In this document: piece by piece, positions 12,066-16,284 of the stretch
How the letters are laid out: the number at the start of each line of letters is the position of its first letter
How positions within the stretch are numbered: position 1 is the first letter of the stretch
NCBI GenBank assembly: GCA_036002485.1
Contig: DASYTI010000109.1
Span: 1 to 38,844 of the forward strand
DNA length: 38,844 nt
Direction of reading: 5' to 3'
DNA from: Candidatus Methylomirabilota bacterium
GTDB lineage: Bacteria > Methylomirabilota > Methylomirabilia > Rokubacteriales > CSP1-6
The notes under the pieces: generated by a model
The model's database searches: none
Told to the model about the DNA's origin: nothing
What the model saw: only the letters and a program-made list of their open reading frames with translations
Translations under genes and position numbers: made by a program

Positions 12066-12156
12066 GGCCGACGGCGGGGGGCGGGCGTGCCGTCCTTAAC
12101 CCAATAAACATGGTCCCTAGGGTGAAGGGGGGGACGCCCGCCCCCCGCCGTCGGCC
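12066..12156. repeat. Long hairpin with perfect 23-bp arms
   Basis: The arms at 12066-12088 and 12134-12156 are perfect inverted complements. The 45-base loop can pair further (CCTTAACCC with GGGTGAAGG, one mismatch). No T-run follows, so it is not a classic terminator. It fills most of the 194-bp gap between the aldolase and the sigma-factor gene. No other promoter was recognised with confidence in this gap. Confidence 0.85.
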
Positions 12157-12222
12157 TGACTTGTCGATGAGCCATCTCTCCCGTTCCACCCGTTTCCGGA
12201 TGGGCCACGTATACGTTCCTGA

Positions 12223-12741
12223 GTGACTGTGATGGAGCACGACAAGAGACTGATGGGGCGGGTGGCGCGGGGCGACGAGACGGCCTTTACCGAGCTCGTC
12301 GGCCGCTACGGCGGGCGATTGCTCGGGGTGGCGCGGCGCCTCCTGGGGTCTCGGGCCGACGCCGAGGATGCCGTGCAGCGCGCTCTGCTCCAGTGCTATC
12401 TGGGCGCGGGGACTTACCGGGCCGAGTGGGCCGTGTCCACCTGGCTCTACCGGATCTTGACCAATGTCTGCGTGGACGAGCTGCGGCGGCGTACGCGCAG
12501 ATCGGGGCAGCTCGAGCCGCCCGCCCGGCCGGATCCACCCGGGCACTACCTGGATCTGCACCGAGCCCTCGGCCGCGTGCCCACGGAGGCCCGAGTCCTC
12601 CTGGCTCTGCGCTACGCCGACGGGCTCTCGTATGGCGAGCTCGCGAGGATACGCGGCATCTCGATCAATACCGTGAAGAGCCAGCTCGCGCGAGGCAAGA
12701 GCCTGCTGCGCACGGCTCTCACCAAGGGAGGAGCGTCATGA
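12223..12741 (+). CDS. ECF-type RNA polymerase sigma factor
   Basis: A 172-residue sigma-70 family protein with only regions 2 and 4. Region 2 contains FTELVGRYGGRLLGVARRLL, DAEDAVQRALLQCY and STWLYRILTNVCVDELRRR. Region 4 contains EARVLLALRYADGLSYGEL and a helix-turn-helix ending INTVKSQLARGKSLLRTAL. Possible starts are GTG 12223, GTG 12229 and ATG 12232. No convincing ribosome-binding site separates them. The stop overlaps the start of the next gene in ATGA. That position usually encodes an anti-sigma factor; here it encodes a DNA alkyl-methyltransferase with an Ada-like zinc motif. The sigma factor is therefore a candidate regulator of DNA alkylation repair, by inference from the coupling. 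Confidence 0.93.
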   Translation: MTVMEHDKRLMGRVARGDETAFTELVGRYGGRLLGVARRLLGSRADAEDAVQRALLQCYLGAGTYRAEWAVSTWLYRILTNVCVDELRRRTRRSGQLEPPARPDPPGHYLDLHRALGRVPTEARVLLALRYADGLSYGELARIRGISINTVKSQLARGKSLLRTALTKGGAS

Positions 12742-13454
12742 AGCCTTCGCCCATCGACGAGATTCTCAAGCGGTACTTCCAGCCCGACGCGGAGCCCGGA
12801 GACCTGGCCAAGCAGGTTCTGCTCGCCGCGCGCGAATCGGCTCGGGAGAGCACCAAGCTGCTCGATCGCCTGGCCATCCAGGCGACCACGGACGGCGTCT
12901 CCCTGATCCGCGCCGAGCGGCTGGAGAAGCCGGCCACCGCGGGGGCGCGGCGCCTCGTCGAGCGCGCGCGGGAAGAGCTCCACGAGTATTTCCAGGGCAA
13001 GCGCGCGTTCTTCTCGGTGCCCGTGGACCTGTCGGAGACCCCGGATTTCCAGCGGCGCGTGCTCGAGGCGGCTCGCCGCATCCCCTTCGGCGAGGTCCGG
13101 CCTTATGCCTGGGTGGCGCAGCGGATCGGTCATCCCCGGGCCGTACGTGCCGTGGGCACCGCCCTCGGGCGCAACCCCGTGCCCTTCATCGTGCCCTGCC
13201 ATCGCGTGCTGCAGTCGGGGGGCGGGATCGGCGGTTACCTCTTCGGCTCGGAGACGAAGAGCGGGCTCCTGGCCCTCGAGCGGACCACCCCCATCTACGA
13301 GGGCTGCACGAGCACGCACATCGTCTGTCGCGTCGGCTGCAGCTCCGGCCGGCGCATGCGTCCGGACAATCGGGTGGTCTTTGCCTCGGTCGAGGACGCC
13401 CGATCGATCGGCTACCGGCCCTGCAAAGTCTGCAAGCCGCCGCGTGCTGCGTGA
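12738..13454 (+). CDS. O6-alkylguanine-DNA methyltransferase with C-terminal Ada-like zinc motif
   Basis: A 238-residue protein. Residues 1 to about 45 are a helical extension with no recognised match. About 50-100 resemble the MGMT N-terminal domain. FQRRVLEAARRIPFGEVRPY to GIGGYLFG is the catalytic domain, with VPCHRV holding acceptor Cys154. Residues 190-238 resemble the zinc-binding part of Ada: Cys197 and Cys201 in CRVGC, Cys229 and Cys232 in CKVC. The spacing is almost that of Ada Cys38/42/69/72. Ada has this domain at the N-terminus followed by an AraC helix-turn-helix. Here the order is reversed and the helix-turn-helix is missing. The gene overlaps the sigma-factor gene (ATGA) and the oxygenase gene (GTGA). 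It repairs alkylated guanine by transfer to Cys154; a sensing role for the zinc motif is inferred. Confidence 0.92.
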   Translation: MKPSPIDEILKRYFQPDAEPGDLAKQVLLAARESARESTKLLDRLAIQATTDGVSLIRAERLEKPATAGARRLVERAREELHEYFQGKRAFFSVPVDLSETPDFQRRVLEAARRIPFGEVRPYAWVAQRIGHPRAVRAVGTALGRNPVPFIVPCHRVLQSGGGIGGYLFGSETKSGLLALERTTPIYEGCTSTHIVCRVGCSSGRRMRPDNRVVFASVEDARSIGYRPCKVCKPPRAA

Positions 13455-14164
13455 GCCTCTCGATCGCCGAGCGGTTGGCCGGGTTCGACTGGGACGTGAT
13501 CGGGTCCTCACTCGACGAGTGGGGATTCGCTCGCACGCCGACCTTGTTGACGGCCGAGGAGTGCGCGGCTCTGCGGGCCCTGTATGGCGACGACGCGCGA
13601 TTCCGCAGCCGGGTCGACATGGCGCGCTACCGCTTCGGGATGGGAGAGTATAAGTACTTTGCGTCGCCGCTCCCCGCCGCCGTCGAGGAGCTCCGGCGTC
13701 ACGCGTATCCACCCTTGGCCGCCGTGGGAAATCGCTGGGAGGCCGCGCTCGGGAGCCGAGCGCGCCACCCCGACACGCTGGCCGGCCTCGTCGCGCTCTG
13801 CGCGCGGCGGGGCCAGAAGAAGCCTACGCCCCTCCTCCTGCGTTATGACGCGGGCGGCTACAACTGTCTCCACCAGGACATCTACGGCGAGGTGGTCTTC
13901 CCCATCCAGCTCACGGTGCTGCTGAGCGAGCCCGGCAAGGATTTCCAGGGCGGCGAGTTCTTGCTTGTCGAGCAGCGGCCCCGCGCCCAGTCACGCGGCA
14001 GCGTGGCCCTGCTCGAGCAGGGCGAAGCGGTGATCTTCTCCACGCGATATCGGCCGGTCGCGGGCGCGCGCGGCGCCTATCGCGTGAACATGCGCCACGG
14101 CGTCAGCCGCCTGCTGAGTGGTGAGCGTTACACGCTAGGCGTCATCTTCCACAACGCGGCATAA
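13451..14164 (+). CDS. 2-oxoglutarate/Fe(II)-dependent oxygenase
   Basis: A 237-residue protein with the double-stranded beta-helix metal site His141-x-Asp143 in NCLHQDIYGEVVFPIQ, distal His216 in NMRHGVSR and a probable 2-oxoglutarate-binding arginine at about 226. FQGGEFLLVEQRPRAQSRG is characteristic of the bacterial Oxygenase-NA/COG3826-like group. As I recall, that group often lies beside ada or alkB genes. It starts at a GTG overlapping the methyltransferase stop (GTGA), so the two are translationally coupled. By context it may remove alkyl lesions oxidatively like AlkB, or modify a protein such as the sigma factor; neither is shown. It ends 265 bases before a convergent gene. Confidence 0.9.
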   Translation: MSLSIAERLAGFDWDVIGSSLDEWGFARTPTLLTAEECAALRALYGDDARFRSRVDMARYRFGMGEYKYFASPLPAAVEELRRHAYPPLAAVGNRWEAALGSRARHPDTLAGLVALCARRGQKKPTPLLLRYDAGGYNCLHQDIYGEVVFPIQLTVLLSEPGKDFQGGEFLLVEQRPRAQSRGSVALLEQGEAVIFSTRYRPVAGARGAYRVNMRHGVSRLLSGERYTLGVIFHNAA

Positions 14165-14428: not shown

Positions 14429-15355
14429 CTACGTTTCGGTGAGGGGGCGGATGTCTTCGGCGAAGCGGTGGAGAAGGGTGAGGTGCTCGCCGAGGTCGCG
14501 CATGCGGGCCTCGAGGACGATGTGGCTCACGCCGACATCGGCGTAGCGGGCGATCTGCTCGGCGATGAAGGCGGGAGGACCCAGGAGGTTGACCCGGCCG
14601 TCCTGCCGCGGCTCGTCGCGGATGCCGTAGCCCGCGCGGACGGAGAAGACGAGGTCGGTGCCGAGACGGCCAAGCTTCTCGCACTCCTTGAAGACCTCGC
14701 GGATCTGCTCGCCCATCACCTCCGGGGCGGACCAGGCGGCGTGAAAGCCGTCGCCGAAGCGGGCGACGCGCCGGAAGGCGGCCGCCCCGCCGCCTCCGAT
14801 CCAGAGCGGTGGGTAGGGTTTCTGGCGCGGCTTCGGGAAGCATCCGACGTCGTCGAAGCGGAAGAACTCACCGATGTGCTTGGAGCGCTCATCCGCCCAG
14901 CAGCGCTTCATGGCGTTGAGCGCCTCGTCGCTCCAGGCCCCCCGCCGCTCGAAGGGCACGCCGAAGACTTCGATCTCCTCCCGCATCCAGCCGACGCCCG
15001 CCCCCACGATGACGCGGCCGTCCGAGAGGTGGTCGAGGGTGGCGATGGTCTTGGCGAGGAGCACGGGGTGACGGTGCGGGAGCACGAGGACGGTGGTGCC
15101 GAGCCGCACGCGCTCGGTGACGGAGGCGACGAGGGCCAGCGCGGTGAGGGGCTCCAGGAAGGCGCCGGTGGGCGGAATGGGGAAGACGCCGGAGCGGTCG
15201 GAACCGTAGGGCGTCTTCTGCTCGAAGGGCAAGACCACGTGATCGGATACGAAGACCGACTCGAAGCCGAACCTCTCGGCCTCCCTGGCCACGCGGAGGA
15301 GATTGTCGCGAGTGGCGAGCGGACCGTAGCAGGGCAGGTGCCAGCCAAAGTCCAC
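14429..15355 (-). CDS. LLM-class (F420-dependent-type) oxidoreductase, copy 1
   Basis: A 308-residue luciferase-like monooxygenase-fold protein. The GTG start gives the family N-terminus VDFGWHLPCYGPLATRDNLL; the frame is open further upstream but overlaps the neighbouring gene. Family segments are SDHVVLPF, ERVRLGTTVLVLPHRHP, LDHLSDGRVIVGAGVGWM and WIGGGGAAAFRRVARFGDGF. Such TIM-barrel enzymes use F420 or flavin. The TIGR03619-like subfamily is frequent in F420-producing bacteria. It is a clear tandem paralogue of the next gene, whose stop is 5 bases from this start. The substrate is unknown. Confidence 0.93.
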   Translation of the reverse strand: MDFGWHLPCYGPLATRDNLLRVAREAERFGFESVFVSDHVVLPFEQKTPYGSDRSGVFPIPPTGAFLEPLTALALVASVTERVRLGTTVLVLPHRHPVLLAKTIATLDHLSDGRVIVGAGVGWMREEIEVFGVPFERRGAWSDEALNAMKRCWADERSKHIGEFFRFDDVGCFPKPRQKPYPPLWIGGGGAAAFRRVARFGDGFHAAWSAPEVMGEQIREVFKECEKLGRLGTDLVFSVRAGYGIRDEPRQDGRVNLLGPPAFIAEQIARYADVGVSHIVLEARMRDLGEHLTLLHRFAEDIRPLTET

Positions 15356-15360
15356 GGCGG

Positions 15361-16284
15361 CTAGTCCGCGGCCCGCGGGCGGATGTCCCGCGCGAAAGTC
15401 CTGAAGATACGCACCATGTCGTCGAGATCCCGGTAGCGCGCCTCCATCAGCACGTGGCTGACCCCGAGGGCCTTGAACTGGTGGAGATCCCCCACGATCT
15501 GCTCGGGCGTGCCCTGGAGCGCCCGGCGGTCCGGACCGCCGGGGCTGTCCCTGATGCTGAGGCCCGCCCGGAGCGTGATGGTCAAATCCTCGAAGCGCCG
15601 GGCCTGGGCCGCGCACTCCTGCTTGAGGAGGGTGATGCCCTCCTCCATGCCCTTCGCGGTCGGAAAGGCGGCATGCCAGCCATCGGCGAGCGCGACGATT
15701 CTCCGCAGGGCGGGCTTCGTGTGCCCGCCCATCCAGATGGGGATATCCCCGCGCGCGGGCTTGGGAAAGCAGCCGATGGCATCGAAGCCGAAGAAGCGGC
15801 CGTGGAAGCTGGTGCGCTCCTCCCGCCAGCTGGCGCGCATGATCCGGATCGCCTCGTCAGACCAGGCCCCGCGCGCGTCGAAGGGCGCGCCCAGGATCTC
15901 GATTTCCTCGCGCATCCAGCCCACGCCCGCGCCGAGGATGACGCGCCCTCCCGAGAGGTGATCGAGGGTGGCGAGCATCTTGGCCGCGAGCACGGGGTGA
16001 CGGTGAGGGAGGACGAGGACGGTGGTGCCAAGCCGCGCCCTCTCGGTGACGCCCGCGACCAGGCTGAGGGCGGTCAGGGGCTCGAGAAAGGTCGAGTCGG
16101 GCGGGAGGGGAAACTGGCCGGTGGGGCTATAGGGATAGCGCGAGGTGATGGTATAGGGCACCACGACGTGATCGCTGGCCCACAGGCTGTCGTAGCCGAG
16201 CCGTTCCATCTCCCGTGCGAAGGCCAGCAGGTTCGCCCGGGTGGCCAGGGGGCCGAAGACGGGCAAATGACATCCGAATTCCAC
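15361..16284 (-). CDS. LLM-class (F420-dependent-type) oxidoreductase, copy 2
   Basis: A 307-residue paralogue of the adjacent downstream gene. It starts at GTG (MEFGCHLPVFGPLATRANLL). It shows SDHVVVPY, ERARLGTTVLVLPHRHP, LDHLSGGRVILGAGVGWM and PIWMGGHTKPALRRIVALAD. The two copies agree over almost their whole length with scattered differences, so the duplication is old enough for specialisation. It follows the acyl-AMP-ligase-like gene by 16 bases and should be in the same operon. A role in F420- or flavin-dependent oxidation of a lipid or other organic molecule is inferred from context only. Confidence 0.93.
   Translation of the reverse strand: MEFGCHLPVFGPLATRANLLAFAREMERLGYDSLWASDHVVVPYTITSRYPYSPTGQFPLPPDSTFLEPLTALSLVAGVTERARLGTTVLVLPHRHPVLAAKMLATLDHLSGGRVILGAGVGWMREEIEILGAPFDARGAWSDEAIRIMRASWREERTSFHGRFFGFDAIGCFPKPARGDIPIWMGGHTKPALRRIVALADGWHAAFPTAKGMEEGITLLKQECAAQARRFEDLTITLRAGLSIRDSPGGPDRRALQGTPEQIVGDLHQFKALGVSHVLMEARYRDLDDMVRIFRTFARDIRPRAAD

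Follow-up and report, generated by a model that had tools for sequence, protein, structure and literature searches.

Adaptation to DNA alkylation, in the cases that have been well studied, is governed by regulators of the Ada or Cada2 type, which bind DNA. In classical Ada, methylation of an N-terminal zinc cysteine switches on the AraC helix-turn-helix of the same protein. In Caulobacter, Cada2 takes the methylation of its PCHR cysteine as a transcription switch, the C267G variant being constitutive, while the dioxygenase–methyltransferase operon ccna_00745/00746 is strongly induced by methylation, with the dioxygenase gene that shares an operon with the A-box methyltransferase as the most induced gene (PMC10957082). 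Both a methyltransferase-cysteine switch and the pairing of oxygenase with methyltransferase thus have experimental precedent (PMC10957082). Among sigma factors, group ECF122 is listed with 6-O-methylguanine DNA methyltransferase neighbours, no anti-sigma factor and an unknown mechanism (PMC8999054). ChrR, RsrA and class I anti-sigma domain (ASD) proteins carry an N-terminal anti-sigma domain with a sensor domain behind it, and are translated together with their sigma factor. We found no description of an anti-sigma–methyltransferase fusion in the literature.

The window analysed here, i.e. the whole 38,844-nucleotide stretch of contig DASYTI010000109.1, belongs to the genome of a Rokubacteria soil bacterium (Methylomirabilota) whose closest named relatives, L006 and L007, show 90% and 81% identity. 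It harbors three forward-strand genes for which the preliminary description had proposed successive four-base overlaps and the identities of an ECF sigma factor, a methyltransferase with Ada-type cysteines and a 2-oxoglutarate oxygenase, and both proposals agree with the ORFs and with the Pfam domains of all three products. The sigma factor ORF (12223-12741) overlaps by ATGA with an O6-alkylguanine-DNA methyltransferase gene (12738-13454), coding for an N-terminal extension and a C-terminal Ada zinc domain, which in turn overlaps by GTGA with an Oxygenase-NA family Fe(II)/2-oxoglutarate dioxygenase gene (13451-14164, PF09859). Also borne out was the view that the repair protein takes the anti-sigma slot, since no anti-sigma gene is located there. 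We consider it fairly likely that this operon is a self-contained alkylation response in which the methyltransferase acts as a suicide anti-sigma factor, alkyl transfer onto it freeing the sigma factor.

The 172-residue sigma ORF contains Sigma70_r2 (PF04542, 1e-16) and Sigma70_r4_2 (PF08281, 7e-13), i.e. sigma2 and sigma4 only, with no sigma1, sigma3 or C-terminal extension, and is by this domain content an ECF sigma factor. Its start is more likely the ATG at 12235 (168 residues) than the GTG at 12223 that opens the ORF, because 12213 is the last base of the conserved -10 box and the ATG, which opens MExDxxLM, is shared by close relatives. The third protein belongs to Oxygenase-NA by its PF09859 match (E 6.1e-78) and is predicted to be active as an oxygenase, with the HxD motif present as HQD and both the distal His and the Arg in place. 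Upstream lies a transaldolase gene, followed by a 37-nt inverted repeat (12066-12156, no strand assigned) which stands before the promoter and is probably the terminator of that gene; therefore, the operon is probably a transcription unit of its own.

Concerning the methyltransferase, Pfam identifies a DNA_binding_1 catalytic domain (PF01035, E 3.3e-29; 13044-13283, forward strand) with the predicted acceptor Cys154 of the PCHR motif at 13197-13199, a combination that assigns the protein by sequence to the O6-alkylguanine-DNA methyltransferases. It is followed by a C-terminal Ada_Zn_binding domain (E 2.2e-9; 37.6 bits against a cut-off of 23) at residues 189-234 (13302-13439, forward strand), with the cysteines C197-x3-C201 and C229-x2-C232 of the Ada metal-binding domain and hence predicted zinc binding. 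The match covers only profile positions 20-64 of 65, so that the domain lacks the N-terminal portion seen in E. coli. C197 is the equivalent of E. coli Ada Cys38, and C154, C197, C201, C229 and C232 are invariant in a 20-row alignment. Residues 1-38 (12738-12851, forward strand) form an extension of two predicted helices, modelled with a confidence of only 60-73 in a structure of mean pLDDT 85.9, in which D7, L10, F14, P20 and L23 are conserved. Pfam detects in this protein no AraC helix-turn-helix, whose absence had been proposed before, and no zf-HC2 motif (PF13490), and no complete anti-sigma domain is recognisable.

The resemblance to E. coli Ada (PRK15435) lies in the methyltransferase, the zinc domain with C-x3-C and C-x2-C, and a putative alkylation regulon, whereas the zinc domain here is C-terminal and truncated, the helix-turn-helix is absent and a sigma factor is the partner. 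Identity with classical Ada was rejected on these grounds and on a PRK15435 score of 104 bits, below the cut-off of 345. With Cada2 and ccna_00745/00746 the locus has in common the PCHR cysteine and the joining of a dioxygenase and an A-box methyltransferase in one operon, but Cada2 binds DNA itself via its B-box and RLHD domains and involves no sigma factor (PMC10957082).

A phylum-wide search yielded 46 Methylomirabilota loci with full-length relatives of the methyltransferase. A sigma gene lies directly 5' of it on the same strand in 43 of them, the gap being at most 20 nt in 40 loci and an exact 4-base overlap in 14; PCHR is kept in 45/46 loci and the four zinc cysteines in 44/46. Conserved to this degree, the adjacency is, judged from gene order, beyond chance. 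The oxygenase adjoins the pair as third gene in only 9 loci, hence of the three-gene order that the preliminary description suggested looking for in other genomes the sigma–methyltransferase pair stands and the constant presence of the oxygenase does not. The two-gene unit is thus the core, and the oxygenase an added output.

The pairing extends to other phyla. Matches occur in 33 of 149 Actinobacteriota genomes, the methyltransferase being of a form without the zinc domain, and a sigma match lies directly upstream in 29/30 loci (L156-L185). Chloroflexota show it in several forms, with 8 clear cases among the best 12 loci and a ninth among these that the profile missed. In a sigma tree with 12 further sigma factors from the same genome as the window, the paired sigmas fall into separate lineages, and the window clade stands apart from one in which the actinobacterial type and the fusion type 3 (see below) come together. 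This repetition favours a functional link over chance neighbours, and at the level of sequence comparison argues for such a link between ECF sigma and methyltransferase. The locus resembles ECF122 of the Casas-Pastor classification in having an ECF sigma beside a methyltransferase and no cognate anti-sigma gene. However, the actinobacterial clade T2, called ECF122-like by its gene pairing and not by the reference sequence WP_057211282.1, has methyltransferases without the Ada zinc domain and sigmas in a clade separate from the window sigma. Membership of the window sigma in ECF122 is hence unlikely, given its place outside T2 on a tree built without the ECF122 reference sequence. A scan of genome contigs returned mostly classical Ada proteins from Bacteroidota, not the window architecture, and a Streptomyces locus (L069) considered as a further pair was rejected as not being an ECF pair. 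One locus, L145 (G037:C144:1-4300), is an alkylation-repair island of actinobacterial type, with Oxygenase-NA, AlkB-like, DinB-like and ECF sigma genes, a methyltransferase extended at the N-terminus and a small ORF resembling Ada_Zn. In L285 (Chloroflexota) an ECF sigma gene is followed by a methyltransferase, possibly an intermediate form, whose N-terminal region has a CxxC and not the full zinc anti-sigma motif.

An ECF-type promoter precedes the operon on the forward strand (12184-12213), with -35 TTCCACC at 12184-12190, a spacer of 17 and -10 CGTATA at 12208-12213. The pattern TTCCRCCN{14,20}CGTATA occurs once in the window and in none of 100 shuffles, and TTCCRCC-N17/18-CGTATA stands upstream of 28 of the 46 sigma genes and nowhere in the shuffled sets. 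In 57 genomes of the family, TTCCACCC-N16/17-CGTATA gives 39 matches against 0 for the reversed pattern, the majority of them 5' of a sigma gene. A promoter shared with other repair genes, as had been envisaged, is present in relatives: it precedes an Oxygenase-NA gene that is followed by AlkB (L222) and a methyltransferase without a sigma (L231). A near-identical promoter lies before Oxygenase-NA in four more genomes (L240-L242, L261), these upstream regions reaching 17.4-18.5 bits with a weight matrix whose maximum over 1,860 shuffled controls is 15.6. Stand-alone oxygenases of other genomes are often without it. The window's genome has three pattern matches, of which the operon's own is the only convincing copy, the other two having been discarded as lying inside unrelated coding DNA. 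Since the promoter is located before the sigma gene and before repair genes alike, autoregulation of the window sigma is very probable, as is the sharing of its promoter with alkylation-repair genes.

These data also bear on the possibility that the operon is a simple output unit, its sigma being governed by transcription, an unlinked anti-sigma factor or degradation, and methyltransferase and oxygenase being targets only. Neighbouring genes are frequent targets of ECF sigmas, the oxygenase is evidently an output and nothing more, the same promoter stands before other genes, and such groups are filed under mechanism unknown in a review (PMC8999054). Nevertheless, this explanation, which we regard as unlikely, leaves without a reason the pairing of the methyltransferase with separate ECF lineages, the conserved N-terminal extension and the existence of anti-sigma fusions.

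It is these fusions, joining a zinc anti-sigma domain to the same kind of methyltransferase in relatives, that speak most clearly for the suicide anti-sigma model. A second ECF sigma–methyltransferase pair (L139; G000:C24:11000-17600, minus strand), overlapping by 4 bases, is encoded in the same genome as the window. Its partner is a 319-residue protein composed of zf-HC2, methyltransferase and an Ada_Zn-like end, in this order. The zf-HC2 domain is found at residues 8-42 over its full 35/35 positions and above the cut-off (E 9.7e-7), while the Ada_Zn-like end misses the cut-off in L139 and passes it in two of the four proteins scanned. This type-3 combination of sigma and fused zinc domain was seen in 21 of 22 inspected loci, the remaining one being ended by a contig edge, and C8, H34, C38 and C41 of the zinc domain are invariant (alignment A2). 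A model of the type-3 protein has a four-helix N-terminal domain (pLDDT 85-89 over residues 11-50), for which the top PDB sequence matches are ChrR anti-sigma factors, albeit at E 0.08; a Foldseek search with the model matched methyltransferases and N-Ada, and no anti-sigma structure. A separate conserved sequence resembling a promoter, TTTCAC...CGGTGTCTCA, belongs to the type-3 sigma of L139. In Pseudomonadota no full-length type-3 match was obtained at E 1e-40 in 299 genomes, a search that had no positive control and says little.

Closer to the window protein are three loci of another family in the same class (L129-L131), whose sigmas form one clade with the window sigma (support 100/98). 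A zinc anti-sigma motif, MTCAQVRERL...AHLEECPRCRQWW, forms the start of their methyltransferase and is sub-threshold in Pfam (L130, E 0.085, below the cut-off). By hhalign, the zinc domain of L130 aligns with that of type 3 (prob 82, E 1e-5), and the window N-terminus together with the methyltransferase start aligns with the L130 fusion behind its zinc motif (prob 93, E 2.9e-7). The window extension alone gives a weak match to L130 (prob 17, E 0.0014), and the direct comparison of the window N-terminus with the type-3 anti-sigma domain gives no alignment (prob 5). From these comparisons we propose that the extension of ~38 residues is a reduced anti-sigma domain, or sigma contact. The loss of zinc would not be unusual, since ~44% of class I anti-sigma domains are without the zinc motif and both kinds sometimes occur in one group (PMC7406223). 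Compared with ChrR, RsrA and class I ASD proteins, the type-3 pair fully matches the layout of a zinc anti-sigma factor with a fused sensor, but a DNA-repair enzyme of the suicide type would serve as the sensor, and the window protein has only the reduced extension.

The retention of the Ada zinc domain in a protein with no clear anti-sigma fold would also suit a positive control similar to that of Ada, in which the methylated methyltransferase assists the sigma or directs it to promoters and no inhibition takes place. Ada and Cada2 do activate after methylation, Cada2 contacting RpoA of RNA polymerase in damage (PMC10957082). Against this stand the fusion of a genuine anti-sigma domain to this protein in relatives, the co-translation with an ECF sigma, which is the usual anti-sigma arrangement, and the lack of a DNA-binding helix-turn-helix in the window methyltransferase; we likewise hold this explanation improbable. 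That the cysteine-rich ends detect thiol or metal stress and repair is incidental is very improbable, for although disulfide stress is sensed by zinc anti-sigma factors, RsrA among them (PMC3961337), the window protein has no zinc anti-sigma motif, its promoter is common to alkylation-repair genes and PCHR is kept in 45/46 loci.

Returning to the suicide anti-sigma model, comparison between genomes brings out the gene order, the promoter and its sharing with repair genes, the cysteines and the anti-sigma fusion in relatives; what we infer beyond these is that the window methyltransferase binds the sigma, that alkylation releases it and that alkylating agents induce the operon. In the undamaged cell the methyltransferase, co-translated with the sigma, would keep it inactive via the N-terminal extension. 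During repair the alkyl group would be moved irreversibly onto the enzyme's own cysteine, either C154 for O6-alkylguanine or C197 of the zinc domain for methylphosphotriesters, one of which would be the trigger. The alkylated methyltransferase would then let go of the sigma, which would use TTCCACCC-N16/17-CGTATA promoters to make more sigma, methyltransferase and oxygenase, and the response would be shut off when new unmethylated methyltransferase builds up. Counting against the model are the absence of a zf-HC2 motif from the window protein, the weak match and modest model confidence of its extension, and the stand-alone oxygenases that often have no such promoter in other genomes; the zinc pairs of the relatives might, moreover, sense thiol stress instead.

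On a wider reading, for and against which we see about equal reason, there would be a family of suicide anti-sigma factors recruited independently by several ECF lineages (Methylomirabilota, Chloroflexota and Actinobacteriota), with sigma activity counting damage stoichiometrically as one inhibitor is lost per repaired lesion, the zinc anti-sigma–methyltransferase–Ada fusion representing the complete version and the protein of the window a reduced one. An alkylation-sensing sigma system is probably real, partly foreseen by the ECF122 entry and new in its architecture. If true, a sigma/anti-sigma response to alkylation would be a third way beside the Ada and Cada2 types, would tell what signal is sensed by a class of ECF sigmas at present filed under 'unknown mechanism' and, to our knowledge, would include the first sigma inhibitor consumed by its own repair reaction. 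The ECF122 question becomes directly testable through a two-protein binding assay.

Other genes are associated with the same promoter or with a second one. EamA-type and MFS transporter genes lie behind TTCCACCC-N-CGTATA promoters in five loci (L220, L226, L230, L223 and L232) and are possibly an efflux arm of the regulon. Another sequence, GGGGAGCCGGGACGTTTACC, is common to the regions before the Oxygenase-NA genes of L234, L236, L237 and L239 and may be the promoter that goes with the actinobacterial-type sigma. Two LLM-class flavin oxidoreductases, homologous to each other, are found behind the promoter in two genera (L221, L224), and in the window two LLM-class-looking genes without the motif come shortly after the operon (14429-16284, minus strand).
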